Assembly: GCF_004342485.1 (NCBI RefSeq)
Contig: NZ_SMBU01000001.1
Span: forward strand, 186,001 to 250,000
Direction: 5' to 3'
From: Roseateles saccharophilus
Lineage (GTDB): Bacteria; Pseudomonadota; Gammaproteobacteria; Burkholderiales; Burkholderiaceae_C
DNA: 64,000 bases
The notes under the pieces are model-generated. The model made no database searches, was not told the DNA's origin, and worked only from the letters and a program-made list of their open reading frames with translations. Shown here in pieces: positions 3,928-23,630 of this stretch. A program made the translations under genes and the position numbers. The number at the start of each line of letters is the position of its first letter. The first letter of the stretch is position 1.

Positions 3928-4034
3928 ACAGTAGCCCCCTGGTGAGCCCCTTGGCACGAATGGGGCTCGAAGACGGTTTTCGCGGTGAATTTCCCCTTGC
4001 GGTGTTGGCCAACCAGTGGCCAAATAGAGGTGTG

Positions 4035-5240: not shown

Positions 5241-8200
5241 TTGCCCGAAGAGCCGCCTGAGTGGCCTTTGGAAGGCTCTTGCGGATCTCCAGTTCGCTCA
5301 CCGAAGTCACCGAGGACCAAGGGCCAGGAAGAGCTGAGGCGGTGTCGTACTGCAGGTTCACGACGGGGTTGCGAACGATGAGGAGGTGCCTGGCACCCGA
5401 GCTGTCGTTCACCTCGACGCCTTCATGCGTGTCACCGTCGTCCAGAAATTTTCCGGTGGTGACGGTGACGCCCCAACCCTCACTGACCTGACGACGCAGA
5501 TCCTGTGCGAGAAGGTCAGCTGCGACTTGCAGCCGCGCCCGATCGAAGCTGACGGTCGGGCGGTCGAGGACCGCTCTGAGAAGCGCAGCCCCTGCGTGAC
5601 GGTCCAGCGCGCTGTGGTCCATTCGGTTGCGGAATGTCCGCAAGCAGCGATAGCAGGAAGAGTCGCAGCCGGAGTTGGGGCACTCCTCCATCAGCCGCAG
5701 CGCTTCAACGAAGAGCGACGTGCCGCGCTCGGCTGCCGCCTTCGCGAAGCCGGCACCACCTGGCAGCGTGTCGTACAGAAAGATTTCCGTCTCGAGACCG
5801 GCCACACCGTCTTGAGACAAGGCGCCCCTGAACTCGGCTTGGATTTCACCTGGATCGATCTGCAGCTCGTTGCACGCCGCCCTGGCGAGGGCCTCACTGA
5901 CCGTGCGCAGCGCGATCTGCGTGATCGTCTCGCCCGCCTTCAGGCGATAGGGATCGTCGAGCCGGAACGAGAAGAGCGCAACGTCGGTCACGAAGTCCGT
6001 TCCCAGCACGATCCCGTCCGGCACGAAGCCGTGGGTGCACTTCGGCTGCTTGTCGTCGGGATAGGGCTTGAGGTGCGCCCTGAGCAGCTTGCCCGTGGCC
6101 TCGGCCGTCGCCTCGATCCGCCCGCAGGTATCGCAGTAGGTGTACCCCTTTCGCTTAGGCCCGGTGTTGGACACCAAGAGGTGGGGCCTGGCGGCAAAGA
6201 AGCGAATACGGTCGCTCACAGTCGTCCATTCGGTTTCGTCTGGGCTCTTGAGGGTCAAGCGCGCACGTGTCGCGTAGCTGGTCAGCGGCATGTCGTCTGG
6301 CGACGTGACGGGCGGCTCGTCGATTGGATGCGCGAAACCGGTGGGCCGCATCCAAAACGCGGCCGGACCCAGTGTCAGGCTTCCCTCACAAGCCGGACAG
6401 TTCAGCCGCGAGCCCTTCTTCACCTCGCCCTCCGCGTCGGTCGTGTACGCGTAGCCGCACTGGCCGCACTCCAGGTAGAGCTTCCGATTCACCCACTGCT
6501 GCTTGCGGTCCCGCTCGAAGGGCGAGTAGATGGCGCCAGACGTGTAGCACTTGCCTGAGATCCAGACCTGCTTGCCTGGGGCGTACTGACTCAGGGCGAC
6601 GTTGAGCCCCTGGGACGGCACGAAATCGAACTTGGGCCTGAACTTGTTGGAGTCAGGCGCGAAAACATGGAAGGTCGCCACGTCGGTCGGGAAGGCGTAG
6701 CGAGGCAGCACACCCTTGTACAGGAGCGTGTCCAGCAGCGCCGGTGACGCGCTGGACAAGGGCGGCTTTTCTTCGTCGGCTTCGGCCTGCGCTTCCAGTT
6801 CGTCAAGCGGATCGTCATGCTGCTGCCTGGGCGCTTTAGGCCGCGGTTCATCGATCCGAGCGATGACCGCCTTCTCGATCTCGCGCGAGGTCTGACTCAC
6901 CATCTCGGCGAGGAGCCAGTCCCTGTCACCGGGCGACAACTCGACGGGCATCCACGTCTGGACGCGAGCGCGCAGAGCTTCCTCGTTGGCTTGGAGCCAC
7001 TGCTTGAAGTCGTCGAGGTTCAACGGCGATCCCGGCATGAGGAAATCAGCGACGTTGCCGAGGACCGAGAACAGGCTGCCGTCTTTGCTGCTGTCGACCG
7101 AGGGCAGCCTTTCACGGTGATAGGCCTGCAGCAGGAACGCGCGCACGTGGCGCATCGCAATGTCCCTGTTGTCCAACGTCAGCGTCGGATCGACCACCGG
7201 CCCAGAGATCATGTCCTTGGGCTTGGAGAAGAAGTGCTCGTCGTGTGTGTCGGAGCCACCGAAGGCAACAACGGTGGCGATCGAGTTGCCACGGCGGCCG
7301 GCACGGCCTGCGCGCTGTTGGTAGTTCGCACGTCCAGGCGGCATGTTGCGCAGCGCGACGGCCGACAGCTGGCCGATGTCGATACCAACCTCCATCGTGG
7401 TGGTGCTGGAGAGCACGTCGATGGCCACGCGCGGGCGGCGCTCGTCGTCGGGCGGCAGCTGCACATCCTGGAACAGCAGCTCGTTCACTTCCGACTTCGA
7501 GAACACCCCTTCATTGCCGGCCGCATTGAGCTGAGCGGTGTGCTCGGCGGCGATCAGCGCCATGGGCACTTCGGGATTGGGGCCCAGGGCAGCCTGGATT
7601 GATCGGCGGTAATAGCCCTTGCGCTTGGCAAAGACGATGTCGGTTTCGGGGTCCATCGGCTCGACGGCTTCGTGACCGCAGTCGAGGCAGAACTTGATGT
7701 TGCCGACCGGACGATGTACCGACTTGCAGTCCGCGCACCGCACCCACTTGCCGCCCAGCGCCAGGCTGACGTTGTTGCCGACCAGTCGGTACTCGGTCTG
7801 GGACATCGGCTCGCAGAAGGCCTTGAGCAAGGCCGGCAGCCACTGCTGCTTGAACTGCTTCTTTGCTTCGGTGGTCCGGAGCCAGCGCTCCAGCTTGCGG
7901 AACGTGCCGCTGCGCGATTCAACGCGCACCTTGCGGTCGGGATGGTGCTTGTACCAGCGGCCCTTCATGCCGTGCATCCAGCACCCAGCCGTCGTCCACT
8001 GTCGCAGCCATGCCCGCGCGAGCTGCACTTTCGTTTCCGGGTCCGTGGCGATCCCTGGAATGTCCGGCAACTTCTCAATCGTCGACCGCCTGTCCGCACG
8101 TTCGACCACCGACGCGATAGCGAGGGCCTCCAGCCCAAGCAGGCGGTCACGCATCGTCGACACGATGTCCGCAAGGAAGGCTTCCGGGGCGCCGTCCCCA

Positions 8201-10674
8201 GACCGAATTTCCATGCACAGCTCGATGAGGTCGGCATCGTTGTCGAGAACGCCCTGCTGGACCTTCTCGATCACCGTCGCGTACTCGGAGAAGCTCTCAT
8301 GCTCCGAGAGCTCAGGGCGAAGTCGCACGCCCAGCTCAGCCGCAGCCAGCAACACCGCTGCGTAGATGTCATTCAACCGGAGCGTGTACCCCTTCAACTG
8401 CTCGAGGCGCTGCCAGCCGCGAACCATGAGCGGGCGCAGCGCATCCCGTGCCGCGTACATCTGCAAGTTCGGCGCCAGTCGAGCCGCGACCTGTCGGGAG
8501 TCCGAGAACGCCAGGACCTTGCGTCCACGCAGCGGCGCGAACGCCGTGGCGGGCTTGTTACCGGGTGGCTGCACCTGGAGCTGCTTCCCAAGGAGCACTT
8601 GGAAGGGCTGGTCGCCCTTGGTCTCATGATCCTGGACAGGAGAGTCCTGGTGGGTACTGCCCATCTCGCAGATCCCGCAGCGCCTGAACTTGCCGGCGAT
8701 CTGTGGCTGATCCTCGCCGTCATCGTCCTCGTCCTTGGTGCCCGCTGGCAGTCGGGAGGGGGGCAGGTACACCGTCCGAGTGCGCCCTCCCGGTGTGTCG
8801 GAGTTCATCTGCAGCGTCCGCAGATCCAGGTTCCAGGGCTCGGCAAGCTCAGGGTTGCCCGGCTTCACCAACAGCATGTCGAGCGGGTTCAGCGGATCGA
8901 TCTCACCGCCGGAGGTGCGCAGCGGCGTCCCGGGCTCGTTCCAGACGCTGTCCGGAGACTCGGGGTTTTCGCAGTAGCCCCGTGCGTAGGGTGAGCCACA
9001 GACGCGGCAGGTGTAGAACTCGAGCACCCGCGAGCCGCACCCGCAGATCTCCCTGGGCTGCGCGTAAAGCTTCCCTGTGGCGCTGCGCTCATCGGGCGAC
9101 AGCTCGCTGCAATCGGGATCCAGGCAGGCCCACAAGCCGCGCAGCCCGCGGAAGAACGAATGCACCCGGCAGGGGAGCAGACTGGGATCGTCAGCCTTCT
9201 TTCGTGCGTTGGTCGCCAGCGCCGCGAGGTTCGTCACGGCCAGGTCAGCCAGCCGCTGCTCGACCCGAGGGAAGATGAAGGCGCCGAGCTCGCTGACCGG
9301 GCGCGCCTGCCCCATCGTGTGGTTGACCAGCAGTGACAACGGCGCGTAGGCCTCCAGTGCGGCGTGCAGGAGCACGCCGAGGTCTCCGGGCGGCTTCAAG
9401 CCCCGCGAGCGGAGGAACGGCGCGGCTGCGGCAGCTTTGATCGACTCGTCGGCGCTGTAGAAGCCCGCTTCCGTCATGTCGATGTCAGCAAGAAGTTGAG
9501 CTTCCGCTTCGCTTCCGGTGCCGGCGCCATCGCGATAGAGCCTGTCGCCGACGATGGTGTCGAACAGCTCGACCGGCACGCCAGCGAGCTTCGATGCGAA
9601 GGACGGTGCGTTCTCCTCGCTCTCGAAGCTGGCCGTCGCGCAGATGACCTGGAAACGATCAGGGGTGATGTCGAGGCGATCACGGAGTCGACGCAGCAGC
9701 AGGCCAACTTCGGTCCCTGACGCGCCGCGATAGAGGTGGGCCTCATCCAGGACGATGAGGAACTTCTCTTTGGGGTTGGCCTTCAGCCAGTCCCGCGTCT
9801 GGTCAAAGATGGGCCGCTCGACGGGTCGCATCAACATGTACTCGAGCATCGAGTAGTTCGTGACCAGGAGGTCAGGCGCGGCTTGCTGGACTTCATGGCG
9901 GGTGACCAGTTCGGTGTCGTCCGGCAGCGTCACGGCACGCACGAAGTTCTTGTCGGCGTCCTGCCAGTGCGCTGCCTTGCCTTTGCCCTTCCCGTAGTAC
10001 CAGCGCTCCATGTCGGGTTTGCCTGGCCACTTGCCCCGGCTCTTGAGACTCTCGATGAGCGAGCTGGAATTCGCGCTCTTCTCGGGGTCATCGCCCCGTG
10101 CCTGTTCCAGGTGATTGACGTAGAAGGTAGAGAAAGCCTTCAGCTTGCGGCCGTCCTTGTCTTTGGTTCGAACACCTGCGTAAGGCGTGCGGCTTGTGTA
10201 GCGTGCGAACCGTGGCGGCCGTCCGCCCCACTTCTTGAATAGCGCGACGACGCGGGCATCGCCGAACATGGCCCTGAGACGCCCCAGCTGATCGTTCACC
10301 AGGGCGTTCATCGGATACAGGATCAGCGCCCGCATGGCACTTTGCGCGAAGACGGCCGGACGGTGCTTCGCCTCGGTGGCAAGCTTGGCCATGATCGGCA
10401 TCACGAAGGACTCGGTCTTGCCGGAACCGGTGCCGGTCATGATGACCGCATTGCGCCCGTCGACGGCCACCGACTTCAGCGACTGAGCCTGGTGCGTATA
10501 CGGCGGGTCGAACAGCAACTGCTTGCCGGTCGGGTCCGGTTTGCTCATCACTTGCAGCAGCTCCGCCGCGGCGGCATCAAGGCCGTCAATCTTGCCGAAT
10601 GCCTTGCCGGGCTTGTACCTGGGCGTTGATTCCAGGTACGGCGCCTGGTGGATGACGCCTTCTTCCTCCAGCAA
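5224..10674 (-). CDS. druE: DruE-like giant helicase with DUF1998 domain; 5' end cut off by an IS
   Basis: The open frame encodes 1816 aa from a TTG at 10674; reconstruction across the IS gives 1853 aa from ATG at 12470. An SF2 helicase core has Walker A TGTGSGKT (about 80-87) and a DEAH box in IVLDEAHLYRGASGTE (about 305), with helicase C-terminal motifs ending QQRAGRAGR. Zinc-type cysteine clusters follow (CRVCGSPYARGYC, CDTCGR). The C-terminal DUF1998/MZB module ends in CYRCLRTFRNRMDHSALDR. This layout and size match DruE of Druantia. In the IS-proximal part the frame stays open to 10800 but has no ATG, GTG or TTG before 10674, and the TTG has no ribosome-binding site, so the gene is probably inactive or weakly expressed now. 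Downstream it converges with druA. Confidence 0.85.
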   Translation of the reverse strand: MLEEEGVIHQAPYLESTPRYKPGKAFGKIDGLDAAAAELLQVMSKPDPTGKQLLFDPPYTHQAQSLKSVAVDGRNAVIMTGTGSGKTESFVMPIMAKLATEAKHRPAVFAQSAMRALILYPMNALVNDQLGRLRAMFGDARVVALFKKWGGRPPRFARYTSRTPYAGVRTKDKDGRKLKAFSTFYVNHLEQARGDDPEKSANSSSLIESLKSRGKWPGKPDMERWYYGKGKGKAAHWQDADKNFVRAVTLPDDTELVTRHEVQQAAPDLLVTNYSMLEYMLMRPVERPIFDQTRDWLKANPKEKFLIVLDEAHLYRGASGTEVGLLLRRLRDRLDITPDRFQVICATASFESEENAPSFASKLAGVPVELFDTIVGDRLYRDGAGTGSEAEAQLLADIDMTEAGFYSADESIKAAAAAPFLRSRGLKPPGDLGVLLHAALEAYAPLSLLVNHTMGQARPVSELGAFIFPRVEQRLADLAVTNLAALATNARKKADDPSLLPCRVHSFFRGLRGLWACLDPDCSELSPDERSATGKLYAQPREICGCGSRVLEFYTCRVCGSPYARGYCENPESPDSVWNEPGTPLRTSGGEIDPLNPLDMLLVKPGNPELAEPWNLDLRTLQMNSDTPGGRTRTVYLPPSRLPAGTKDEDDDGEDQPQIAGKFRRCGICEMGSTHQDSPVQDHETKGDQPFQVLLGKQLQVQPPGNKPATAFAPLRGRKVLAFSDSRQVAARLAPNLQMYAARDALRPLMVRGWQRLEQLKGYTLRLNDIYAAVLLAAAELGVRLRPELSEHESFSEYATVIEKVQQGVLDNDADLIELCMEIRSGDGAPEAFLADIVSTMRDRLLGLEALAIASVVERADRRSTIEKLPDIPGIATDPETKVQLARAWLRQWTTAGCWMHGMKGRWYKHHPDRKVRVESRSGTFRKLERWLRTTEAKKQFKQQWLPALLKAFCEPMSQTEYRLVGNNVSLALGGKWVRCADCKSVHRPVGNIKFCLDCGHEAVEPMDPETDIVFAKRKGYYRRSIQAALGPNPEVPMALIAAEHTAQLNAAGNEGVFSKSEVNELLFQDVQLPPDDERRPRVAIDVLSSTTTMEVGIDIGQLSAVALRNMPPGRANYQQRAGRAGRRGNSIATVVAFGGSDTHDEHFFSKPKDMISGPVVDPTLTLDNRDIAMRHVRAFLLQAYHRERLPSVDSSKDGSLFSVLGNVADFLMPGSPLNLDDFKQWLQANEEALRARVQTWMPVELSPGDRDWLLAEMVSQTSREIEKAVIARIDEPRPKAPRQQHDDPLDELEAQAEADEEKPPLSSASPALLDTLLYKGVLPRYAFPTDVATFHVFAPDSNKFRPKFDFVPSQGLNVALSQYAPGKQVWISGKCYTSGAIYSPFERDRKQQWVNRKLYLECGQCGYAYTTDAEGEVKKGSRLNCPACEGSLTLGPAAFWMRPTGFAHPIDEPPVTSPDDMPLTSYATRARLTLKSPDETEWTTVSDRIRFFAARPHLLVSNTGPKRKGYTYCDTCGRIEATAEATGKLLRAHLKPYPDDKQPKCTHGFVPDGIVLGTDFVTDVALFSFRLDDPYRLKAGETITQIALRTVSEALARAACNELQIDPGEIQAEFRGALSQDGVAGLETEIFLYDTLPGGAGFAKAAAERGTSLFVEALRLMEECPNSGCDSSCYRCLRTFRNRMDHSALDRHAGAALLRAVLDRPTVSFDRARLQVAADLLAQDLRRQVSEGWGVTVTTGKFLDDGDTHEGVEVNDSSGARHLLIVRNPVVNLQYDTASALPGPWSSVTSVSELEIRKSLPKATQAALRAITGRE

Positions 10675-10751: not shown

Positions 10752-10755
10752 GGTC
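10752..10755. repeat. Target-site duplication, left copy (GGTC)
   Basis: GGTC directly abuts the left inverted repeat and is matched by GGTC at 12437-12440. Keeping one copy restores the druE reading frame. Confidence 0.85.
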
Positions 10756-10770
10756 GAGACTGTGTGAAAA
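10756..10770 (+). repeat. IS left terminal inverted repeat
   Basis: 15 bp; pairs with 12422-12436 with one mismatch. Confidence 0.85.
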
Positions 10771-10832
10771 CCCTCCTTGGATAGCCCGCGCCGCAGCCTA
10801 GATTGTGGGAACGCCACAGCACGGGTCTGCCC

Positions 10833-12278
10833 ATGAAGCGATTCATCGAGGGAGAGGATCGACACCAGGTCACGCTGCTACCCGAGTCCCTCGACGACTT
10901 CGTCGGCGCAGACAACCCGGTCAGGGTGATTGATGCGTTCGTCGAGGAACTGGATCTGCCAGGACTTGGCTTTGATGGCGCAAACCCTGCCGCGACTGGT
11001 CGACCGTCCTATCACCCGGCCGTGCTGCTGAAGATCTACATCTACGGCTATCTCAACCGCATCCAGTCCAGCCGGCGCCTGGAACGCGAATGCCAGCGCA
11101 ACCTTGAGCTGATGTGGCTGACCGGCCGCCTGGCGCCGGACTTCAAGACCATCGCCGACTTCCGGCACGACAACGGCAAGGGCATCCGCAACGTCTGTCG
11201 ACGCTTCGTCATGCTGTGCCGCGACCTGGACCTCTTCTCGCAGGCCATCGTGGCCATCGACGGCAGCAAGTTCAAGGCGGTCAACAACCGCGACCGGAAC
11301 TTCACTGCTGTGAAGATCGAACGATTCCAGGAGCACATCACCGAGAGCATCCAACGCTATCTGGACGGTCTTGAGACAGCGGACCGGACACAGACGGCTG
11401 GACTGCAGGCCAAGACAGAACGCGTGCAGGAGAAGATCAAGAAGCTTCGTCAGCGCATGCAGCAGCTCGACGCGCTCAAGGCGCAACTGGCGTCTGAGCG
11501 CGATGGGCAACTGTCAACGACTGATCCCGATGCACGCGCCATGGCGACCAGCCGACCGGGCTCGGCGGTCATTGGCTACAACGTCCAGACGGCCGTGGAT
11601 GCAAAGAACCACTTGATCGTCGCGCACGAGGTGACCAACGACAGCAGTGATAGAGCGCAGCTGAGCAAGATGGCGGTGGTCTCGCGCGAGGCCATGGGCG
11701 TCACCGAGCTGCAAGCCATTGCAGACCGCGGTTACTACAACGGTGTGGAGCTCAAGGCCTGCGAAGACGAGGGGATCGCGGCGTACGTGCCCAAACCGCT
11801 GACTTCCAACGCCAAGGCCGAAGGACGCTTCGACAAGGCCGACTTCATCTACATCGCCCGCGACGACCAGTACCAATGCCCGGCGGGTCAGCGCGCCGTT
11901 CACCGCTTCACCACGGACGAGAGGGGTCAACAGATACGCCTGTACTGGTCGAGTGCATGTCCGCGTTGCCCGATGAAAGAGCAATGCACCACCAGTGCGT
12001 ACCGCCGCATCAGGCGCTGGGAGCACGAGGCCGTCCTGGAATCTGTTCAGCAGCGATTGGATCAAGCGCCCGATGCCATGAGGGTCCGACGGCGCACCGT
12101 GGAACACGTCTTCGGAACGCTCAAGCATTGGATGGGCTCAACGCACTTCCTGACGCGACGGCTCGCGCATGTCGGCACGGAGATGAGCCTGCACGTCTTG
12201 GCCTACAACTTGAAGCGGGTGATGCACATCTTGGGCATCGGTCCGCTGATCCAAGCGATGAGGGTGATGGGCGCGTGA
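10833..12278 (+). CDS. IS1182-family transposase
   Basis: The 481-aa DDE transposase moves the IS by cut-and-paste or a related route. The N-terminus has the DUF772/InsH-type domain (GRPSYHPAVLLKIYIYGYLN, then LAPDFKTIADFR). Likely catalytic acids are D in VAIDGSKFKAVNNRDRNF, D in AIADRGYYNGVEL and E in RRTVEHVFGTLKHWMG. A coiled-coil stretch (about 185-225) and a four-cysteine patch (CPAGQRAV, CPRCPMKEQC) are usual for the family. The start at 10833 (MKRFIEGEDRHQ) matches relatives; an upstream in-frame ATG at 10803 adds ten unlike residues. No frameshift or stop is seen, so the enzyme looks intact. Confidence 0.9.
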   Translation: MKRFIEGEDRHQVTLLPESLDDFVGADNPVRVIDAFVEELDLPGLGFDGANPAATGRPSYHPAVLLKIYIYGYLNRIQSSRRLERECQRNLELMWLTGRLAPDFKTIADFRHDNGKGIRNVCRRFVMLCRDLDLFSQAIVAIDGSKFKAVNNRDRNFTAVKIERFQEHITESIQRYLDGLETADRTQTAGLQAKTERVQEKIKKLRQRMQQLDALKAQLASERDGQLSTTDPDARAMATSRPGSAVIGYNVQTAVDAKNHLIVAHEVTNDSSDRAQLSKMAVVSREAMGVTELQAIADRGYYNGVELKACEDEGIAAYVPKPLTSNAKAEGRFDKADFIYIARDDQYQCPAGQRAVHRFTTDERGQQIRLYWSSACPRCPMKEQCTTSAYRRIRRWEHEAVLESVQQRLDQAPDAMRVRRRTVEHVFGTLKHWMGSTHFLTRRLAHVGTEMSLHVLAYNLKRVMHILGIGPLIQAMRVMGA

Positions 12279-12421
12279 GCGCCCTCAGCGCGCCAAACCA
12301 GCTCTGCGAGCCCTACAAGGCGCCCAAACGCAAATGCTCGCCGTTCGGGACAATGCGATCACCTGCGGTTGCAGCGGGTTCAACCAGCGAGGCACACGCT
12401 CGTCAGCGTCTCGTTGACGCG

Positions 12422-12436
12422 TTCTCACACAGTCTC
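12422..12436 (-). repeat. IS right terminal inverted repeat
   Basis: 15 bp, the inverted partner of 10756-10770, followed at once by the right copy of the GGTC duplication (12437-12440). Confidence 0.85.
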
Positions 12437-12470
12437 GGTCGTTGGCGGTTTCGTCGACGGTCTTGGACAT
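12437..12470 (-). pseudogene. druE: Severed 5' end of druE (first 11 codons)
   Basis: From ATG at 12470 this reads MSKTVDETAND and then enters the IS. GAGGA lies about 8 bases before the ATG, and the start is 21 bases after the stop of the 357-aa gene, so this was the original druE start in a three-gene operon. Joining it to 10752 through the single GGTC gives ...TANDLKQSLIEYIEATYH in frame, which is typical of the N-terminus of this helicase family. After the insertion, translation from here runs into IS sequence. Confidence 0.85.
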
Positions 12471-12491: not shown

Positions 12492-13565
12492 TCAGGCTAC
12501 GAGCTCTCGCAGCCAGAGGCGTTCTTCCAGATAGCGCCGCTCGGACGCTTCCTCGTTGGCCGGCACCACGAACGCATTGGGGTTGTCTTCGCGAGCCATC
12601 GACCCGCCCAGAAAAAGAAGGCGGCGTCGGGCGAAAAGGGGCAGCGGAAAGTCCAGGCGCAGGATCGCCTCGGCACCCCGGCGTTCCACCGAATAGCCCG
12701 CGGGGCAGCCCTGGCTTGCATCAATGGCCAGCTGCGCACGCCAGGCCTGGTCACAGCCGCGGTCGGTGTCGAGGTGGAAGGGCAGAAGCAGCGATCGCTT
12801 GCAGCGTCCCGACACAAGCTCGGCGAAGTACCAGAGCGGCGCGCCATGGGGCTGTTCCACGCGCACGATGTGCAGGCCGGTGGCGGTGCTGTCCTCGGAC
12901 CAGCGGCGTTGGTAGGGCGTACGCGCAGAGGTCTGGTGAGCGAGGGTCCGCATGCCGGGCAGATGCCCATTCGTTCCGTGCCGCTGTAGCCGGTCACGGA
13001 GAACGTCAAGGTGCTGGGCCGCTGTTTCCGTGCGTTCAAGACCCAGCCATTCGCGCTCATCCAGTTGTCGAAGGCCGAGAGCCTGCAGCGAGGCCGGCGA
13101 GAGGGCGCCAGGCTCGTCCAGGGCTAGGAAGCGAGCGGCCCCGTTGAGCTGAAGATGCTGCCGGTATTCGCCAGGCAAGCATGGCGCGTTGTCCGGGGCG
13201 ATACCGAACAGGTAGGCACGGTGACCCCGCAGCACGAATCCGGGCGGCGCCGGGAACAACCACTGGGACCGGTCTTCATCCTGTGCCACCGTGACGCGTG
13301 CGAGCTCGACGACGTCGCCGCAGGTCTGCAAGTCTTCCAGCACGTCGCTGGCGGCCTTGCCGAGGGCATCGGCGTCCCAGCCCAGCCCGCTGAGCGCTCG
13401 GCGAGTGGCCGCCAACAGGGCGTGCGGCGGACAGGGATACATGCGGGCAAGCTGGCTGCGCATGACACTCGCCAGCAGCTCTGCCGACATCTCGCGGCCG
13501 GTCAGACCATGCTCGGCGACTAAGCCTTCCAGTGCCTGCTGGGGCGAAAGCGCTACGACCTGCAT
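12492..13565 (-). CDS. Uncharacterised protein of the DruE-like operon (357 aa)
   Basis: I do not recognise this family. The 357-aa product is soluble-looking, with no signal peptide or membrane segment; the N-terminal 80 residues are helical and the rest is mixed, with motifs such as WLFPAPPGFVLRGHRAYLFGI and a C-terminal basic run LFARRRLLFLGG. It overlaps the end of the upstream 956-aa gene by 13 bases and stops 21 bases before the original druE start, so it belongs to one operon with both. Its place between a large unknown and DruE suggests a dedicated subunit of a Druantia-like defence complex; it could correspond to one of the small Dru proteins, but I cannot match it. Confidence 0.7.
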   Translation of the reverse strand: MQVVALSPQQALEGLVAEHGLTGREMSAELLASVMRSQLARMYPCPPHALLAATRRALSGLGWDADALGKAASDVLEDLQTCGDVVELARVTVAQDEDRSQWLFPAPPGFVLRGHRAYLFGIAPDNAPCLPGEYRQHLQLNGAARFLALDEPGALSPASLQALGLRQLDEREWLGLERTETAAQHLDVLRDRLQRHGTNGHLPGMRTLAHQTSARTPYQRRWSEDSTATGLHIVRVEQPHGAPLWYFAELVSGRCKRSLLLPFHLDTDRGCDQAWRAQLAIDASQGCPAGYSVERRGAEAILRLDFPLPLFARRRLLFLGGSMAREDNPNAFVVPANEEASERRYLEERLWLRELVA

Positions 13566-16423
13566 GCTTCCTCCACTTCGGCCGTCACGCGCCCGCGGTC
13601 GGCGTACAGCCGCAGCAGCCGCGCGCCGCGCATGGGTCGTCCGAGGGCGCCGTAGAACTTCTCGCAGGCGTTGGTGACATCTTCAGGGCGAAGGTCGTGG
13701 AAGCCGCCCGACAGCCGCCATGCGCACCTGGCCACGGCCGGGTCGTCGGCCATGCGCAACCGCATGGTGACGTTGACGAACCGCTCCTCGAGTGCTTCGC
13801 CCGACTTGTCGGAATTGGCCCAGACCCTGGAAAGCATGATTCCGTAGCTTGTCTGCCACTGGCAGGACGCCTCGAGGCGCTCCCAATCCTCTTCCGTCGG
13901 GTGCTCGCTGAGTGTCTGCTCCAGCTCGCGCCAGCGACGGCCTGCCACCATGCCGATGCCGTGATCCTGCAGGGCCTGCAGCACGTGCCGCTGGCGGTAG
14001 CGCGAGATCAGCCCGCACACCCGGGCGCTTGCCCACAGGCGGTAGGTCTCCAGCGTCTCCAGGAGCGTCCCCGGCAGGTCGGTGGGGTTGATCGCGACAC
14101 GGAACAGGTCGAAGCCCTTGCCAACGCGCGGCGGGCTGACGACGACGCATGCCTCCACCGTCGCGTTGGTGGCCACGTACAGGCCATCGCCGGCCGCCAC
14201 GTCGATGCCGTTTGTCGCTTGGCTGGTTGAGATGACCCGCCACTGCGCGGGCCGCTCAAATGAAGCGGTGCGGACCCGCACCACCGAGTTCTCGAGGTCA
14301 TCGAGCAGCTGCAGCGTCGCTTTGGTCTTCTCCTGCAGGTACGTCCACCGCAAGGGCTGAACCACCTGCTGCAGGATGATTCGGCGCAGCCCGAGGTCTC
14401 CGCCGTCCACCACGATCTGGGCCGCCTCGAAGTTCAGGAGATCGAACTCCTCGCTGCCATGGTGCAGCGTCCTGCCAACCGCTTCTCGCAGGTCCTTACC
14501 GCCGATCGGCAGGTGCTGCTTGCAGATGGGGATCGCGCTGAGGACTTCGCCGGCGGCGTCTAGCAGATCCAGCCGCACGACCACTTCCCGGGTGGCATCG
14601 CCGTCCACCCTCAGCGACACGCGCCCCGAGATGAACTCGGAGAACGTCGGAGCCGCCGGCGCACAGGTCACGAGCATGGCCTGCAGCGGCTGCCGGCCCG
14701 GCGCGAAGCTGGAGGGCTGCCGCACCACGATGGCCAGCTTGGCGCTACCGATGCGCTTGGAACCCGCGCCGGCCCCTGGTGCGCCGGCGTGGGTGGAGAT
14801 CACGACGTCATGCCGGCCCTCTCGCAGCCCCACGAGAGACACGATCTGCTCGGCCGCGGAACTGCAGGCAATCACGGTCGAGGGCTGCCCTTCGATGCCG
14901 ACGCTGTAGTGAGTGAACTCGTGGTCACGATGCAGCCTGAAGGATGGCGTTTGCGTGGACAACCACTCGCCCAAGCTCTGGGGCGACCAGCCCACCGGCA
15001 CGACACCGACCGGAGAGATCGAGACGCCGTAGACGGCAGACAGCCCGGCTTGCTGGAGTCGAGCCTGAAAGGCGGTGCCGACGGGATGCGGAATCTCGAC
15101 GTAAGCCGCGCTGACGCCTTCGCACGCGATCCGGTGGGGATGCCACAGAGCGGGGAGCTTGCTGGCGTCACGCACGATCACCACATAGCGCTCGCCCGGG
15201 CGGACCGAAGTGCCGATCACATGAGCCGCGCGCCCATCGCTGCCGACACGGAATAGCCAGAGGCTCGCCGGCCGCAGCTGGCAGCTCATCTTCACGATTT
15301 CGTCGACGACCGGCAGTGCGCGATCGAACCTCACGACGCATGTCCGGTCTGCGGGCCAGCTGGTGATGGTCCGCTCGAGCCCGGCGGGGGAAAGCAACGC
15401 GGTGGCTGGGCCCATCTTGGACCCGTGGCAGGGCACGCCGACCCGGTTCGTTTCGAGGTGGTCGAGCAGCTCGTCGTTCCCCGTCGCCAGGTGCACGAAG
15501 GTCGGGATGGTGATGACCGGCGTCCATTCGTCGGCGGCCGTGCGGATCAAGGACAGCCGCGGCTCGAGTTCCGGCTCGCGCCGCGTCGCAGTTGCCGCCT
15601 CATCGCGGAGGCGGCCGAAGTCGGGCAGCCACGGGCTGGCCGGCATGCCAAGGTGTCCGCCCTGCGGCCTGACCGAGTGCTGCTGGTATACGCCGCGCGA
15701 CTCCGTGAGCCAGGCCCGTGCGTGGCCCTCGCTCTTTAGATCCTTGACGATCCTGGCCAGGGCTGTGGGCTCCAGGCCGCTGGCCACGTCTTCGCCTCTG
15801 AGTAGCGTACGGACGATCCAGCCGGCCAGGCGCTTGTCCCGCAGGAACAAGACGAAGCGGTGCGTCGGGTAGTAGGCGAAATGCGCAACAAGCTGCCCCA
15901 GATACTCGTCCGGCTGTCGCAGCGCAATGTAGAGGTGGTGCCGCGCCCGGTAGACGGCCTGCATCAACTGCACTTGCAGGTCGCGCGGCAACAGCGCGTG
16001 CGCGATGGGCCAGCAGATGTACTTGTAGTGGTGGGCCCACCCGCCCGAAGGGCGGACGCCGCGATACCGCTTCGAGAACGCCTCGAAGTAGTCTCTGAGG
16101 GTTTCGCGATTCCCGTACGGCAGCCAGCCCGGTGTCGCCTGGGCGAAGGTGTTCCAGTACTCGAGGCCGGCGAAGTTATAGCCACGCTCTGCCGCGTGTA
16201 CCACCCACGTCAGCTGGTGCTTGGGCGACATATAGCCCAGGTCGCGTAGGCTGGAGCCCAGACGATCGCCCAGCGAGGCGACCGTTTCGCCATCAAGCCC
16301 GTGTTCGATGGCGAACAGCGGAGAGGCGTCCGCGCCGCGGCCCTTGCTGTCGCTGAGGCGCTGGAAGTGGTCCTGTAGCGCTGCTTCGATGCTGGCGAGG
16401 CGTGTCGAGGACGATGGCGTCAT
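13553..16423 (-). CDS. Uncharacterised large protein of the DruE-like operon (956 aa)
   Basis: First gene of the minus-strand operon with the 357-aa and DruE-like genes. The start at 16423 is chosen because GGAG sits 6 bases before the ATG and the product begins MTPSSSTRLASIEAALQ; the frame could extend 37 codons upstream but those residues look like non-coding sequence. No P-loop, signal peptide or membrane segment is seen. The N-terminal third is helical and aromatic-rich (LEYWNTFAQATPGWLPYGNR, HHYKYICWPIAHALLPRD); the middle and C-terminal parts look like beta-rich and helical domains. Large uncharacterised partners upstream of DruE are typical of Druantia (for example DruH in type III), so a functional analogue is plausible. 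Homology is not established by eye. Confidence 0.72.
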   Translation of the reverse strand: MTPSSSTRLASIEAALQDHFQRLSDSKGRGADASPLFAIEHGLDGETVASLGDRLGSSLRDLGYMSPKHQLTWVVHAAERGYNFAGLEYWNTFAQATPGWLPYGNRETLRDYFEAFSKRYRGVRPSGGWAHHYKYICWPIAHALLPRDLQVQLMQAVYRARHHLYIALRQPDEYLGQLVAHFAYYPTHRFVLFLRDKRLAGWIVRTLLRGEDVASGLEPTALARIVKDLKSEGHARAWLTESRGVYQQHSVRPQGGHLGMPASPWLPDFGRLRDEAATATRREPELEPRLSLIRTAADEWTPVITIPTFVHLATGNDELLDHLETNRVGVPCHGSKMGPATALLSPAGLERTITSWPADRTCVVRFDRALPVVDEIVKMSCQLRPASLWLFRVGSDGRAAHVIGTSVRPGERYVVIVRDASKLPALWHPHRIACEGVSAAYVEIPHPVGTAFQARLQQAGLSAVYGVSISPVGVVPVGWSPQSLGEWLSTQTPSFRLHRDHEFTHYSVGIEGQPSTVIACSSAAEQIVSLVGLREGRHDVVISTHAGAPGAGAGSKRIGSAKLAIVVRQPSSFAPGRQPLQAMLVTCAPAAPTFSEFISGRVSLRVDGDATREVVVRLDLLDAAGEVLSAIPICKQHLPIGGKDLREAVGRTLHHGSEEFDLLNFEAAQIVVDGGDLGLRRIILQQVVQPLRWTYLQEKTKATLQLLDDLENSVVRVRTASFERPAQWRVISTSQATNGIDVAAGDGLYVATNATVEACVVVSPPRVGKGFDLFRVAINPTDLPGTLLETLETYRLWASARVCGLISRYRQRHVLQALQDHGIGMVAGRRWRELEQTLSEHPTEEDWERLEASCQWQTSYGIMLSRVWANSDKSGEALEERFVNVTMRLRMADDPAVARCAWRLSGGFHDLRPEDVTNACEKFYGALGRPMRGARLLRLYADRGRVTAEVEEACRS

Positions 16424-16934
16424 TTGCACTCCGACCACGGTGTCAGCACGTAGGCGTGTCCTACGCAGCCAGTTTGGCTGTCCGAGCCGCTTGAATGCAG
16501 CATGGCACCTCGACGACCACCGGCGCCGGGTCACCTATACCGACTGCGCGCCGATAGGCCGGATCTTGCAGACCTACTTTGCGTGACTGCCAGCCGGCGA
16601 ACGCCTCGGGCTCCGCGACGGCCGCTGCCGAGATGGGCGCAGCATCCAATGACATCTCCCTCTACCTTTATTGTCATCCCTCTAAGGGGCTTTGCCTCAT
16701 GATGGCCCGCCTCCTGCTTGCCAGGTAGGGGAGCTTCCCTATGCGAACTGCGTTATTCGTCTGGGGAGATGCGCTCTACGCACCGCCCGCTCGGACTGCA
16801 GAACCGACTGTGAACAGAGTCGACCTCGAAGAGTGCGTACGGCTCATGCACGAACGAATGGGCCTGCTTGCGGTGAGTTGGTTCTCTTGGTCATGAGTTA
16901 TCCGATCGCGCAGACAAGGACGGCGCTGGCAACT
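16424..16934. other. Intergenic region between two minus-strand groups
   Basis: About 510 bases that must hold the promoter of the DruE-like operon and the 3' end of the GTPase operon. Apart from a weak 64-codon frame on the minus strand (16461-16655), I see no gene, strong terminator or repeat. Confidence 0.45.
16461..16655 (-). CDS. Possible small protein (64 aa)
   Basis: A weak candidate. The minus-strand frame starts at ATG 16655, preceded closely by AGGTAGAGGGAG, and ends just upstream of the 956-aa gene. The product starts MSLDAAPISAAAVAEPEAF and has a reasonable amino-acid mix, but no recognisable domain. If real it could be a leader gene of the DruE-like operon. High-GC DNA often leaves frames of this length open by chance. 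Confidence 0.25.
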   Translation of the reverse strand: MSLDAAPISAAAVAEPEAFAGWQSRKVGLQDPAYRRAVGIGDPAPVVVEVPCCIQAARTAKLAA

Positions 16935-18608
16935 TTATGCAGGGCTCGCGGCCTCGAGCTGAATGCGCACTTCCTCCACAAGCCCAGACAACCGCTGCGC
17001 AAGCGCTGTCCTGTGGTCGCCGCCGGCCACGATTTCACGGGCTAGGACCGAAGCATCTTTGAGAGGGTTGTCGTAGAGCTGGGCAAGCAGCACGTCACCC
17101 TGCTCGTGTAGCACGGCATCAAACTGGCGGGCGATGTCATTGAAGCTGGCGCGCATGTCGGCGCGCAGCGTGCGAAGCTGCCTTTCGGCCTTTTCCTTCG
17201 CCTCCTCCTCGCGGTAGTTGAAGTAGGCCTCGGCGATTGCCACCAGGGGGCCGGCGACTTTGCTGCCAGCACCTACCCAGCGATCAAGCTTGACCTTGCC
17301 CCACGGCTTGAACTTGCCACCGAAGAACTTGAAGATGCGGGCAAGCACCTCCGTCACCTGCTTGGAGTTTTCGTTGACTGCCTTGGCAGCCTTTCGCACG
17401 CCCTCGGCCACGGCCTTGCGCGTCTTGGGCGAAAGGCCTGCCCCTCCGCTGCCTACGTCCGGCCGCTTGAGGTCGACCTCGAACTCCGCGCGCACCTGCT
17501 GCGCCAGCGCCGAGCCATCGATGTCGTCGAGCCGAGCCATCAGATCGCTGGCCAGCCGCCCGTGAAGAACGTTCAGCTTGTCGCTGACCTCTTGCACGAT
17601 GCGCTGCAAGGCTTGCTCTGCATCGGCTGCCGCGACGTCCATTTCTTCCATGCTGGCACGGTCGTCGAGCAGCTTCAGCAGCTTCTCTGCCGGCTGCACA
17701 AGACGCGCGCGCGCCTCGCTGCGCAGATGGCCCAGTTCTGCACGAGCCCGCCCGCGCTCCTCGTTCAGCGCGAATATTTGCCGCCGCACCAGGTCAGTCG
17801 CACGCGAGCGCGACCCGTCGTCGACGAGCGCTCGGCTGACAGCGTCGTTGAGGATTTCCAATAGCTGCTGAAGGGGACGCCGCTGCTGCGCGATGACACC
17901 GTGCCGATCGCAAAACGCATCGATGGCAGCAATCAACCCCTCGAAGCGCGATGAGGACAACTTGCGGGCGGCCTTCTGCGGATCCTCTGCCTTGCGAGAC
18001 GCCAGGTACTCCCGCGTCGAGACAACCACCGGACCGAAGTCGTCGATCGACAACGGCTGGATCTCCTCAGCCAGCACACCCGAGATGAACTGCGCCGCCT
18101 CTTCCGGCGTGCGGCCCGCCAGATTGAAGCGGTCAAACTTGTTGACCACCAGGAGCATCTGCTGACGCTTGCCCAGGTCGACCGCGGCGCGCATGAAGTA
18201 GGGCAGGCTTTCAGGGTTGAACAGCTCGTTGGAGACCACAAACAGCAGCAGGTCCGCGTCGGTGATTGCCTGCCTGGCGATCTGGTCGTGGTCGGCATGC
18301 CCGGACAAGGTGCCTGGCATGTCGACCAGGAGCAAGTCGCCATAGGGGTACTCGTGCACCTCTGTCGTGGTGACGCCACCGCCAGCAGGCACCTCCAGTC
18401 CAGTCAGCGCTTCGACCAGGCTGCTCTTGCCAACCTCATACACGCCAGCCAGCGCCAGCTTGAGCCGTCCAGGGTCGATGGTCACGCGTGTATCGACGGC
18501 GTCCCTGAGGTCCACGAACTCGGTGCCGGCGGCGTCCAGGGTTGCGAGGGCCTGGGCCTTGAGCGAGCGAGCGGCCTGTTTGGTCTGTTGGTAGCGGGTC
18601 TGGGTCAT
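16935..18608 (-). CDS. Dynamin-like GTPase, partner protein (557 aa)
   Basis: A GTPase domain lies near the N-terminus: G1 loop GVYEVGKS (55-62), conserved threonines at about 80-82, G3 DMPG (96-99) and G4 NKFD (156-159). The following 350 residues are mostly long helices with coiled-coil character, and a short hydrophobic patch (about 440-470, VGAGSKVAGPLVAIAEAYF) could touch membrane. This is the layout of bacterial dynamin-like proteins or LeoA-type GTPases. Its ATG overlaps the stop of the larger GTPase gene (ATGA, 18605-18608), so the two are almost certainly made together and probably form a hetero-oligomer, as paired bacterial dynamins do. A role in membrane remodelling or defence is inferred from family and island context. 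Confidence 0.78.
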   Translation of the reverse strand: MTQTRYQQTKQAARSLKAQALATLDAAGTEFVDLRDAVDTRVTIDPGRLKLALAGVYEVGKSSLVEALTGLEVPAGGGVTTTEVHEYPYGDLLLVDMPGTLSGHADHDQIARQAITDADLLLFVVSNELFNPESLPYFMRAAVDLGKRQQMLLVVNKFDRFNLAGRTPEEAAQFISGVLAEEIQPLSIDDFGPVVVSTREYLASRKAEDPQKAARKLSSSRFEGLIAAIDAFCDRHGVIAQQRRPLQQLLEILNDAVSRALVDDGSRSRATDLVRRQIFALNEERGRARAELGHLRSEARARLVQPAEKLLKLLDDRASMEEMDVAAADAEQALQRIVQEVSDKLNVLHGRLASDLMARLDDIDGSALAQQVRAEFEVDLKRPDVGSGGAGLSPKTRKAVAEGVRKAAKAVNENSKQVTEVLARIFKFFGGKFKPWGKVKLDRWVGAGSKVAGPLVAIAEAYFNYREEEAKEKAERQLRTLRADMRASFNDIARQFDAVLHEQGDVLLAQLYDNPLKDASVLAREIVAGGDHRTALAQRLSGLVEEVRIQLEAASPA

Positions 18609-20956
18609 CTGGATCCTCGGTCAAGTGCGTCCCCGGCTCGCAAAACGATGGGCGTGCCGAGGACTTCTTCTGCAAGCATCAGGTTGCGCCGCTGGCGGCC
18701 GTAGACAGCGCCGGCTTCGCGATGGGGAAGCGTGACCTGCACGCCTTTGCTGGAGGCAACCTCGACGCCGCTGGGTGGAACCCGGCCAGGAGCCAGTGCC
18801 TCGCACACCATTCGCGGCGACAGCCCACTGCCATCGTCCTCGATGACGTCTACCGGATGACCCGTGTGTTCCCGCAGTGTGCGGATGAATTCGCCGCCGC
18901 GCCCGAGCACGAGGCCCATAACGGGGCGTCGCCCATCGCCTCGCACCAAGATCTTGGCGCGGTACTGCATCCATTGCGACGCATCGACCAGCGTGGCCCG
19001 ACCTTCCTGGAAGGCCGGATGCATGGAGCGCAGCAGGGCGTCAAACGACTGCCGGGCGAGCGCGTGACGGGCGCGGTGCAATTCGCCCACAAGCGCGCGG
19101 CCTTGCTGTGAAACGGCCTGCAGCGCTTGCGAGTACGCGTCCAGCAGCTGCTCCACGCCGTCTCGGGTGGGCCTGACGAGCTCGAGCACCCAGGTGGACA
19201 ACTCTTCATGAAGTGCCCGGTGGCGCTCCCACAGGACGTCACGCATCTGCTCACGCAGGCCACGCTGGGCGCCCTTTCGATCCTTCAAGCCGCTGGATGT
19301 CACAAGGTCACCGGCCTTGCTCGCCACGCGGTTCGCGACGTACCCGCCGATCAGCCCGCCAAAAAGACCGAGCAGACCACCGATGGCGGCCCCAACCGGG
19401 CCGCCGATGGCAACACCCGCGGCCGCACCGAGTTCAGCGCCTGCCCAGGCGCCCCCAAGGCTGGCCGCAGCCGTGCCGACCGTACGGATTCCCTTGCCCA
19501 AGCGCAACTTCCATGCGCCGGTGTTTAAGTCGGTGTCGCCAAGGCGGAAGTCGCCCTGATCCTCCGCCGCCGCAAGCGACACCGCCGCAGTCAGGTCTTG
19601 CCCCAGGGAATCCCGGAAGTACTCCAGGTTGCGGCGGGTGCGGTCGATCACATCCTGCTGAATCTCTTTGCGGCGCCTCTCCACCTCGTCCCAGCGACAG
19701 GCCTGTTTGAACGCTTCATTGACCGAGCCGGTACGGTCTTCGCGGGCGAACGCCCAAGCCAGCTCATGAAGCTCATCGTGGACCCTGCGGAAGTGATCCT
19801 TGAATCCCTCCAAGTCCCGCTGCGAATCCAGGACTACGCGGGCGAACAGCCGCCCGGCCTCCTGGCGCTTGCGCGACAACTCCGCAAGCTGCCGCTCGAT
19901 TGCTGGCAATTCAGCCTCAAGGTCCGCAGCAATGCTTTGCGCGTAGTGCTGCAGCGAGTCGAAAGCCGCGGTCGCCCGGATCGATACGCCGCGCTGGTCG
20001 ATGGTGCCGGCGATGTAGCCGATGACATCGTCGATGCGGCTTTCGCGCCAGAGGTACTCGCGCGCTATCGGATCCACGGCGCGCTGCGCCTCGAACGCCG
20101 CATTGGCGCAATACGGGATGACTGTCGCCGGGTCGCCGGGGAATACCTCGCGCAGGCGGTCGCGGATGAAGGAAATCCGCTGCTCCATCTCTTGTGGATC
20201 GAAGGCGTCCTCTGCCTCGCCCAACAGAATGGGATTATTCGCCGCCTTCACGTTCAGCAGCACCACCAGGTGCTTGTTCTGTCCTCGCACCTCGCGCATG
20301 CGCAGGAACAACTCAGGCTCGATAGAGTCGTCGGTGACCACCATGCAGATCAGGTCGGCTCGATCAACGTAGGCCTGTGCGACCCCGTGAAGTTCCTCCC
20401 TGAACCCGAGCAGCCCTGGCGTGTCGATCAGCGTGATGCCGTCCCAGCGCTCGCCGCGCACATTGCGGGTGAAGTCAGGATCCCCGGCGCCAATGGTGCT
20501 GCCGTCTCCGGCCGTGAGTGCCTCGATCGTCGTCGACTTGCCGGCCATGGTCTTGCCAAAGAACATGACCGTGAACTCGTCCAACTCTCGGCGCCGCTGA
20601 CCGTGCGCCAGGCGTAGATCTCCGAAGCGGATGCGGATTCGATCGCGCTTCTCGGTCACCAGAGGCGCGATGGCCTCCTTCACTGCCGCGTCCCGCGTGT
20701 CGCTCATGGCCGCGTGCTGCTTCGCGGCCACGGCCAGTGCCTTGTCAAAGCGCTTCAGGGCCGCCTGGATTTGCTCAAAGACGGGCTCGGCCTCATCGAA
20801 CTTCGAACGCGCCGCCTGGCTGCACCGCGCCAGCGTCTGGGCGAGGTTCACGCGACCCAGGCGCGGCGGCTTGCGCGCCGGCCCACCCTTGCGGACCGGG
20901 GCTTTGCGGCTCTCGATCGACGGCTCTTGGCCTCTGCTTGCCGGCCGATTGGGCAT
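18605..20956 (-). CDS. Large dynamin-like GTPase with glycine-zipper segment and C-terminal NusA-type tandem KH domain (783 aa)
   Basis: Domain order as read: basic N-terminus; helical region (40-125); GTPase with G1 GKTMAGKS (134-141) and G3 DTPG (178-181), while the usual NKxD is replaced by LNVKAAN (234-240); coiled-coil helices (335-450); a glycine-rich hydrophobic segment (about 497-541, with GGPVGAAIGGLLGLFGG) resembling membrane-inserting glycine zippers; another helical part; then two KH-like modules. The first (about 666-722) has GxxG as GRGG (685-688) and ends VCEALAPGRV, close to NusA KH1. The second (about 738-773) reads VTLPHREAGAVYGRQRRNLM, like NusA KH2 with a degraded GxxG. 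It overlaps the downstream GTPase by four bases. GTPase and zipper calls are firm; the KH call is motif reading. Confidence 0.75.
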   Translation of the reverse strand: MPNRPASRGQEPSIESRKAPVRKGGPARKPPRLGRVNLAQTLARCSQAARSKFDEAEPVFEQIQAALKRFDKALAVAAKQHAAMSDTRDAAVKEAIAPLVTEKRDRIRIRFGDLRLAHGQRRRELDEFTVMFFGKTMAGKSTTIEALTAGDGSTIGAGDPDFTRNVRGERWDGITLIDTPGLLGFREELHGVAQAYVDRADLICMVVTDDSIEPELFLRMREVRGQNKHLVVLLNVKAANNPILLGEAEDAFDPQEMEQRISFIRDRLREVFPGDPATVIPYCANAAFEAQRAVDPIAREYLWRESRIDDVIGYIAGTIDQRGVSIRATAAFDSLQHYAQSIAADLEAELPAIERQLAELSRKRQEAGRLFARVVLDSQRDLEGFKDHFRRVHDELHELAWAFAREDRTGSVNEAFKQACRWDEVERRRKEIQQDVIDRTRRNLEYFRDSLGQDLTAAVSLAAAEDQGDFRLGDTDLNTGAWKLRLGKGIRTVGTAAASLGGAWAGAELGAAAGVAIGGPVGAAIGGLLGLFGGLIGGYVANRVASKAGDLVTSSGLKDRKGAQRGLREQMRDVLWERHRALHEELSTWVLELVRPTRDGVEQLLDAYSQALQAVSQQGRALVGELHRARHALARQSFDALLRSMHPAFQEGRATLVDASQWMQYRAKILVRGDGRRPVMGLVLGRGGEFIRTLREHTGHPVDVIEDDGSGLSPRMVCEALAPGRVPPSGVEVASSKGVQVTLPHREAGAVYGRQRRNLMLAEEVLGTPIVLRAGDALDRGSR

Positions 20957-21104: not shown

Positions 21105-22289
21105 CTATTCGATGTGGCGGCGCGTGAGGCTGACGAGGAGCGCGCTGGACAGCACGATCCCAAGCAGCCCTTCGAGCACCGCAAGGAATCGCGCGAAACC
21201 CATCGGCGTGATGTCTCCGTATCCGATCGTCGTAAACGTCAGGCCGGAAAAGTAGAGGGCCTCACGGAAGGTCTCAACGTGCTTTTGCTCGAATCTCAAG
21301 TCGCCGTAAAGGTACGCGATAGAAAAAATGAAGATCGTTGCCGCGGCCAAACCCACGATACGCATGGGCTTGACCAATGCTCCAGTCAGGAAGATCAAGG
21401 CAGTCCTGAAGTTGCCGGGACTTTCAGCGAGCGCCCGCTGATACTTCAGCTCCGCCGCCTGTTTTCGGCTGTAGCGGTCCTCGGAATGTTCCTGCAGGAA
21501 GTCCAAGGTCTCGCCGACGCGCCGCGCAGCCTCGCCGCGACTGATCTCATCGGCCGCTTCGTCAAACAACTGGCGCGGTGGGATGCTGAAAGGCTTGAAC
21601 GCAGCGGGGCTACGGCGCAGCCATGTCCATGACTTGGGATGTTGCTGAAGGGAACGCATGTCCACCTGCCCGGGCGGGAACCGAACTGACTTGAATTTGC
21701 CATCGGTAACTTCCAGCGTGCCTAGCTGGTTGTAGGCCACTGACAGCGCATCACAGGTGAGTCGCATCAGCTGCGTGGAGGCGAAGGCACACCCATTCAC
21801 TTGCAAATCGTCGCTCTGAAAATTGTCCAGTCGAAGCAAGGGCGAGCGCACGTCCGTCAGGCTCGCGGGAGACACCGGGAACTCATTGCCGGAGACGATC
21901 AGTCTCTCGCCGACGACGACCGTATCCAGGCTCAGCTTGATGGGACGTTCGATCTTGTTCCCAATGATCAAGGAGCCTAGGAACGCGCAGTCCAGGATGA
22001 TGATGTTGGAGCTGTTCTGGAGGAGCACCTCGTCGCAATCGACGATCACTTCTCGAATCTTGAAGTCTGGGTGGTGCCAGCGGTTCTCATCGTCCAGTCC
22101 AAGATCCTTGGCGGTGACAACTTGGAACTCGGCCTCGCCGTGCTTGATGACCGAGCGCCCGGCGATCCAGTCGCGCAGGCTCTGCTGGTCATGAATTCCG
22201 TTGTCGCGCAGCAGCTCCAGCAAATGGCCCATCTGCTTGACGCGACCTGGACGAGTGCCGTCACCGTTTTCGAAGTACTGCAGTTTCAT
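21105..22289 (-). CDS. Two-TM potassium-channel-like protein with N-terminal beta-helix-like domain (394 aa)
   Basis: The C-terminal part is a KcsA-type pore: TM1 (about 307-330, IVGLAAATIFIFSIAYLYG), pore helix and selectivity filter TTIGYGD (353-359), TM2 (about 365-388). The N-terminal 220 residues are rich in alternating hydrophobics with a repeating feel (IIILDCAFLGSLIIGNKI, LRLDNFQSDDLQVNGCAF) that suggests a right-handed beta-helix or pentapeptide-like sensor domain. Start at 22289 follows GGGAGGGAG with good spacing. It lies 148 bases upstream of the large GTPase gene on the same strand, so the three genes may be one transcription unit. In a defence island a gated channel would suit membrane depolarisation as an effector; that is inference. 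Confidence 0.8.
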   Translation of the reverse strand: MKLQYFENGDGTRPGRVKQMGHLLELLRDNGIHDQQSLRDWIAGRSVIKHGEAEFQVVTAKDLGLDDENRWHHPDFKIREVIVDCDEVLLQNSSNIIILDCAFLGSLIIGNKIERPIKLSLDTVVVGERLIVSGNEFPVSPASLTDVRSPLLRLDNFQSDDLQVNGCAFASTQLMRLTCDALSVAYNQLGTLEVTDGKFKSVRFPPGQVDMRSLQQHPKSWTWLRRSPAAFKPFSIPPRQLFDEAADEISRGEAARRVGETLDFLQEHSEDRYSRKQAAELKYQRALAESPGNFRTALIFLTGALVKPMRIVGLAAATIFIFSIAYLYGDLRFEQKHVETFREALYFSGLTFTTIGYGDITPMGFARFLAVLEGLLGIVLSSALLVSLTRRHIE

Positions 22290-22763: not shown

Positions 22764-23171
22764 TCAGCGCGTACCTTTGATGATCTCCAGCATCATCTTT
22801 GCGTGACCACTGATGAACTGCAGAGTTGACTGGTACTTGATTGTGTTCTCGGCAAACGCGGCGCGCTCCCGATCCATATCTACAGTGTTGCGGTCGAGAT
22901 TGGTTTGGCTCGGCATCGCGTACACAAGGTGGCGCTCGACGCGTGCTGCCGTGGCCTGAGCGCTGAGGTCGCCCGCCTTAGCTTGCGCCGCCCCGGCGGA
23001 CGCAATGCCACTTGTAGCGTCGCGCAATGCTTCCGCGAAATCCAGGTCCCGCGCCACATAGCCAGGTGTGTCCGCGTTTGCGATGTTGCTCGCAATCAGG
23101 CGCTGGCGCTCAGCCCTCAAGACCAGAGCCTGAGCATCGAAGTTCATTCCATCGGTCAGTCGATTGATCAT
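22764..23171 (-). CDS. flgB: Flagellar basal-body rod protein FlgB
   Basis: FlgB forms the proximal rod of the flagellar basal body. The 135-aa product has the rod-protein N-terminal signature RLIASNIANADTPGYVARDLDF (about 26-47) and the FlgB-type C-terminus with NTVDMDRERAAFAENTIKY, both needed for rod helix packing. Length is normal. Start at 23171 follows AAGGAAG with good spacing. The usual partner flgC is missing; only fliE lies upstream on the same strand. An orphan rod gene in an accessory region is odd: a remnant of a second flagellar cluster or a recruited module. Confidence 0.88.
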   Translation of the reverse strand: MINRLTDGMNFDAQALVLRAERQRLIASNIANADTPGYVARDLDFAEALRDATSGIASAGAAQAKAGDLSAQATAARVERHLVYAMPSQTNLDRNTVDMDRERAAFAENTIKYQSTLQFISGHAKMMLEIIKGTR

Positions 23172-23321
23172 GGTGCACTTCCTTAGCGATCCGACGAACC
23201 TCGCCCTGCAGGGTCATCAGCTAGAGGTAGAGGATCTTTTCAAGACGGGCGCGCCGCGCGGCCTTCTGGCGATACGCAGATACGGCGGCCAGCCGCACTT
23301 AGCAGGTTGGCGAAGACGCCC

Positions 23322-23630
23322 CTACACCTGCATATTCATGATGTCGCTGTAGGCCTGAACGAGCTTGTTGCGGACCTGCAGCGTGGCCTGCATCGCGATG
23401 CCGGCCTTTTGGCCGGCAACCATCGTTTCCTCAAGACTGACCGTTGGGTTGTCTAAGGTGAACTCGTCCTGAAGCCTTCCCGCCTCCTTCCCTAGCGCGC
23501 TGGTTGTCTTCAGAGCGTCTGCCAGGGCATCCTGGAATCCCGTCTCGTGAACAGGCGTGCTCTTCCGAAGTAGCTGGCTCGCGCGAGTAGCTGACTCGAT
23601 CGAATCCAGCGGTTTCATACTGAGCTCCAT
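23322..23630 (-). CDS. fliE: Flagellar hook-basal body complex protein FliE
   Basis: FliE joins the MS ring to the rod, contacting FlgB. The 102-aa product has the family C-terminus: NPTVSLEETMVAGQKAGIA, then LQVRNKLVQAYSDIMNMQV at the end. Length is normal. The start has an almost perfect ribosome-binding site, AGGAGG, 4 bases before the ATG. It sits 150 bases upstream of flgB on the same strand; FliE and FlgB contact each other in the basal body, so their joint survival without other flagellar genes may be meaningful. Confidence 0.9.
   Translation of the reverse strand: MELSMKPLDSIESATRASQLLRKSTPVHETGFQDALADALKTTSALGKEAGRLQDEFTLDNPTVSLEETMVAGQKAGIAMQATLQVRNKLVQAYSDIMNMQV

Follow-up and report, generated by a model that had tools for sequence, protein, structure and literature searches.

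A 64,000-nucleotide stretch of the Roseateles saccharophilus genome (contig NZ_SMBU01000001.1, positions 186,001 to 250,000; this whole stretch is called the window below) carries two adjacent minus-strand genes for dynamin-like GTPases. By sequence, the 783-residue product of the upstream gene is LeoBC, one of the two partners in a LeoA/LeoBC (Eleos-type) dynamin pair; Eleos is the name given to this pair. The PADLOC LeoBC profile matched residues 39-633 (7.4e-66; profile positions 8-587 of 601), and the match stopped just ahead of a C-terminal module resembling the tandem KH1-KH2 domains of NusA. The Pfam Dynamin_N domain matched LeoBC residues 171-210 (2e-5) at 25.1 bits, just under its 27-bit cut-off; in LeoA, whose gene start shares 4 nucleotides with the leoBC stop, Pfam found Dynamin_N (6.6e-9) and DLP_helical (9.1e-6). 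An anatomy for LeoBC of GTPase, long body, and C-terminal NusA-type KH1-KH2 is nearly certain.

18605..20956, minus strand: leoBC-type gene, 783 amino acids, ATG start (open reading frame, ORF; PADLOC LeoBC over residues 39-633)
20252..20572, minus strand: GTPase domain, residues 129-235 (Pfam MMR_HSR1, E 1.8e-11, above cut-off)
19262..19486, minus strand: glycine-rich hydrophobic stretch, residues 491-565 (sequence)
18629..18967, minus strand: NusA-type tandem KH module, residues 664-776 (sequence, profile, and predicted-fold evidence)
18893..18904, minus strand: KH1 loop GRGG, residues 685-688 (sequence)
18689..18700, minus strand: KH2 loop position GRQR, residues 753-756, without GxxG (sequence, alignment)
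16935..18608, minus strand: leoA-type gene, dynamin-like GTPase of 557 amino acids (PADLOC LeoA, 1.9e-68)

The glycine-rich stretch is presumably a membrane-insertion paddle. It also matched a phage tail family in PHROGs (7e-9), which we read as reflecting composition rather than kinship.

The pair itself is already known. Passages of PMC10482375 count Eleos among defence systems, and the main text of PMC4159319 presents LeoABC of enterotoxigenic Escherichia coli (ETEC) as a dynamin pair in which LeoBC is divided into two; searching that text for the words 'nucleic acid', 'RNA-binding', 'NusA', and 'KH domain' gave no occurrence. In open-licence papers, preprints aside, a KH tail on LeoBC appears undescribed among the matches listed. 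A preliminary description of this DNA had proposed a dynamin-like GTPase with a C-terminal NusA-order KH tandem at 18605..20956, which Pfam, NCBIfam, phmmer, hhalign, and the predicted fold all bear out. It knew of no described system with this layout. The GTPase, however, is of an already described kind, LeoBC, and the KH tail recurs in other LeoBC proteins beyond the window.

Evidence for a NusA-type KH tandem

First, Pfam KH_1 matched LeoBC residues 680-712 with 24.7 bits (cut-off 21.5), and positions 227-333 of the NCBIfam NusA model aligned to residues 664-770 (E 0.0019). The full NusA model scored 19.6 bits against a cut-off of 253.4, as expected because a single domain aligned, and we rejected membership of LeoBC in the NusA family as a whole. 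The N-domain and S1 domain of NusA are unmatched in LeoBC, as the KH part alone of the NusA model aligned, and a separate NusA is encoded in the same genome (397.3 bits). Second, in a phmmer search of the PDB, the top match was the eukaryotic KH protein FUBP2 (9e-7, two short stretches); the runner-up, NusA of Mycobacterium tuberculosis (2asb, E 2.3e-5), was the first to span both KH modules. Third, we compared the tail by hhalign with a profile built from 30 NusA KH1-KH2 stretches, using 200 column shuffles as the null. The window tail alone gave a probability (P) of 92.9 (E 3.8e-7), the window together with its closest relative, L006, gave P 96.9 (E 1.8e-10), and none of the 200 shuffles reached the score in either case; with relatives, the window gave P 96.9-97.1. 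As controls, the C-termini of LeoA and the helical region of LeoBC gave P 0.1 and P 0.3 against the same profile, and the window and window-plus-L006 queries gave P 0.1 and 0.3 against the NusA S1 region. Finally, NusA was the best match over both KH domains for the predicted fold of the C-terminal module; ribosomal proteins were also structural relatives, for one KH of the module only.

These profile and fold comparisons were among the checks that the preliminary description had called for. The KH1 motifs it quoted, GRGG at residues 685-688 and VCEALAPGRV, are present, and so is YGRQRRNLMLAEEVLG in the block it called KH2-like; the loop of that block has no GxxG and reads GRQR.

Compared with the known pair, the window proteins have the same GTPase and body, which fit the LeoBC profile, and an adjoining LeoA; they differ in the KH tandem, which lies beyond the profile match. 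The module shares domain order, fold, and sequence motifs with NusA KH1-KH2, but it is fused to a dynamin-like GTPase, has lost the KH2 loop, and is basic. Era, a small soluble protein with a single KH domain, is also a GTPase with a C-terminal KH, whereas LeoBC has a tandem in NusA order behind a long body; on the Era model LeoBC scored 20.7 bits (cut-off 237), and Era membership was rejected.

Relatives, neighbours, and genomic setting

GxxG is the nucleic-acid-binding loop of KH domains. In KH1 it is present in the window (GRGG), L006 (GKGG), and L004 (GPGG), and in KH2 it is present in L004 (GPDG) and L022 (GNRG). The remaining KH-bearing proteins have GxxG in neither domain, and the KH2 position of L003, L008, L024, and L070 reads GKDH or GKSH. 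Of the 11 proteins whose module was measured, 10 have a basic one (isoelectric point, pI, 8.1-10.3) and L004 is at 4.5; the KH stretch of this genome's own NusA has a pI of 5.0. Because of these loop states, nucleic-acid binding by the KH module is a reasonable guess in the case of the window and L006; for the others it is doubtful. A tree of the GTPases had long branches and split first from second GTPases weakly (68/31), and we therefore drew no deep phylogeny.

A LeoBC on a Pseudanabaena plasmid (L005:5260-7788) has an N-terminal TerB domain (1.1e-9) and no detectable KH, and LeoBC may therefore swap accessory domains.

LeoBC-like proteins are sporadic. They were found in the window's own genome only among 60 related genomes; the family had them in 3 of 399 genomes (window's genome included), one order in 2 of 300, and the phylum in 3 of 398. 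In the class, the PADLOC LeoBC model matched in 7 of 369 genomes, three of which we counted as LeoBC-type (G000, G115, G392); in the order of G392, the one positive among 11 genomes was the centre genome itself, and no new member emerged. These sets overlap and include the window or centre genome where present, and because few candidates were scored per genome (2 or 3 in several searches) the tallies are minimum figures. Plasmids of Klebsiella, Rhodovastum, and Pseudanabaena also carry the pair, as do contigs of a viral collection; the last member found was L072. Searches of a phage collection, of E. coli genomes by DNA, and a first viral scan led to nothing. The sporadic distribution is suggestive of mobility.

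Ten picked neighbour ORFs of the relatives were scanned against PADLOC at 1e-5. Five matched: in L006 an NsnA-like GmrSD protein, in L027 a type I methylase and a specificity gene, in L025 a type II methyltransferase, and in L031 a WYL protein. The other five were a HEPN protein in L006, three serine recombinases in L026, and the ORF beside L022 (L029:4011-5504), which matched nothing. The three large serine recombinases are consecutive and sit immediately ahead of leoBC on their contig, which belongs to the viral collection (L026:623-5520).

In the window, leoA and leoBC follow a run of defence genes comprising ShosA and ShosT, Druantia genes, and an unassigned ORF.

81-1487, plus strand: TniQ-type transposition protein (6.8e-14), island edge
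2382-3927: ShosA and ShosT, defence run
3942-5240: DruA, defence run
5224-10674: DruE, defence run
10803-12278, plus strand: DDE-type transposase gene between DruD and DruE
12492-13565: DruD, defence run
13553-16534, minus strand: 993-residue ORF between DruD and LeoA, unmatched in Pfam, PADLOC, NCBIfam, and PHROGs
21105-22289, minus strand: ion-channel protein (Ion_trans_2, 4e-15), ~150 nucleotides upstream of leoBC, in the same orientation

ORFs resembling flagellar FlgB and FliE (22764-23630, minus strand) flank the island. DruB and DruC were unmatched among the window ORFs scanned, and the 993-residue ORF may stand in for them. The transposase is flanked by a 17-nucleotide inverted repeat (94%; 10755-10771 and 12421-12437), chosen by position among the repeats found. 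Its insertion appears to break druE close to the beginning of the gene, because profile position 40 is where the DruE match begins, and a short ORF has its start at 12470. We also considered Leo and Druantia as one conserved system and rejected this idea: in L006 the pair is followed by the NsnA-like GmrSD and HEPN proteins (four L006 ORFs scanned), and in the window a 400-nucleotide gap separates leoA from the next ORF.

Possible roles of the KH tail

Eleos protects against phage; how bacterial dynamins detect phage is, to our knowledge, not settled. In the account that we favour, LeoBC and LeoA would come together at the inner membrane as a heterotypic GTPase complex. The KH tail, chiefly KH1 with its intact GRGG, would during infection bind single-stranded nucleic acid, most likely phage RNA; binding would relieve or nucleate assembly, and the assembled GTPases would tether or remodel the membrane and block infection or progeny release. 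Judged from sequence, binding of nucleic acid by the tail as the trigger of LeoBC/LeoA membrane action is a serious possibility, tentatively held and somewhat short of probable. We infer heterotypic membrane assembly by analogy with Campylobacter jejuni DLP1/DLP2, described as a heterotypic assembly (PMC6104087), and phage protection by analogy with Eleos and with Bacillus subtilis DynA, reported to act against phage (PMC8844932). These paired or fused bacterial dynamins were compared by description, not sequence, and their abstracts mention no KH tail.

Several observations weigh against nucleic-acid sensing by the tail. KH2 in the window has no GxxG, and the loop is gone or altered in most relatives; because of this loss, the sensing of foreign nucleic acid that the preliminary description envisaged is weakened, and we grade it as plausible. 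In the single GxxG-altered tail modelled, the predicted KH fold persists, which would fit a role without nucleic acid, and L004 has GxxG in both KH domains yet an acidic module. KH was undetected in 3 of 15 LeoBC-type proteins, and the pair can therefore exist without it. Moreover, ETEC LeoA is reported in passages of PMC4159319 as periplasmic and linked to vesicles, and an RNA sensor makes little sense for a periplasmic protein.

The KH assignment has weak points of the same bearing. The model of the window KH region had a middling predicted local distance difference test score (pLDDT) of 62.8, with model residues 18-48 under 50. In one-by-one hidden Markov model searches (hmmsearch) with the NusA profile, the sole convincing score was that of L006 (25.3 bits, E 7.6e-5); the window gave 14.6 bits (E 0.16), L024 gave 11.1 bits, and L004 and the remaining group B and C proteins were at or near noise. 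By hhalign against NusA, group B (KH score 29.8) went from P 48.4 down to P 20.7 once L070 was added, and its score against the NusA S1 region (17.9, P 2.2) came near the shuffle maximum of 18.7. L004 alone gave P 12.6, with 1 of 200 shuffles reaching its score. Group C gave only P 14.1 against NusA KH (0 of 200 shuffles) and P 0.5 against group A, its score there falling below the 95% point of the shuffles (15.4); it is called KH because it is related to group B (P 83.1 across 48 columns).

In the main rival account, the tail would instead be an assembly or docking module that contacts LeoA, other LeoBC molecules, or the transcription or translation machinery, with a trigger other than nucleic acid. 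Such a module would account for a KH fold that outlasts its GxxG loops; against it, the window and L006 keep a canonical KH1 GRGG or GKGG and the module is nearly always basic. We find this quite possible, although we lean towards doubting it. Distinctly unlikely is a tail that serves an effector as a targeting device: it would carry the GTPase to RNA polymerase, nascent RNA, or ribosomes close to the membrane, and the pair would act on co-transcriptional or co-translational complexes and take no part in phage sensing. Era is a precedent for a GTPase with an RNA-binding KH, and NusA and, for one KH, ribosomal proteins are the structural relatives of the module; however, the polymerase-binding N-domain and the S1 domain of NusA are unmatched in LeoBC. 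A housekeeping or vesicle-release system in place of defence is very unlikely given the sporadic spread and the defence and mobile-element genes nearby, although deletion of leoA, leoB, or leoAB each cut ETEC vesicle release by roughly half in the account of PMC4159319. That short motifs produced a spurious KH call is hardly credible and we regard it as refuted, since the column shuffles and hhalign controls rule out a chance origin and independent sequence, profile, and fold evidence outweighs the GxxG-less KH2, the low hmmsearch score, and the eukaryotic top PDB match.

A broader form of the nucleic-acid-sensing account, in which these proteins would be an unrecognised, sporadic, and taxonomically broad dynamin-pair branch with a NusA-derived KH infection sensor, and in which GxxG decay would record changes of trigger in an arms race, is somewhat unlikely. 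The KH tail of LeoBC is a defined, separable, and mutable part and thus offers a direct way to probe phage detection. If nucleic-acid sensing is true, LeoBC would show, in a prokaryote, a dynamin-superfamily protein under the direct control of nucleic acid.
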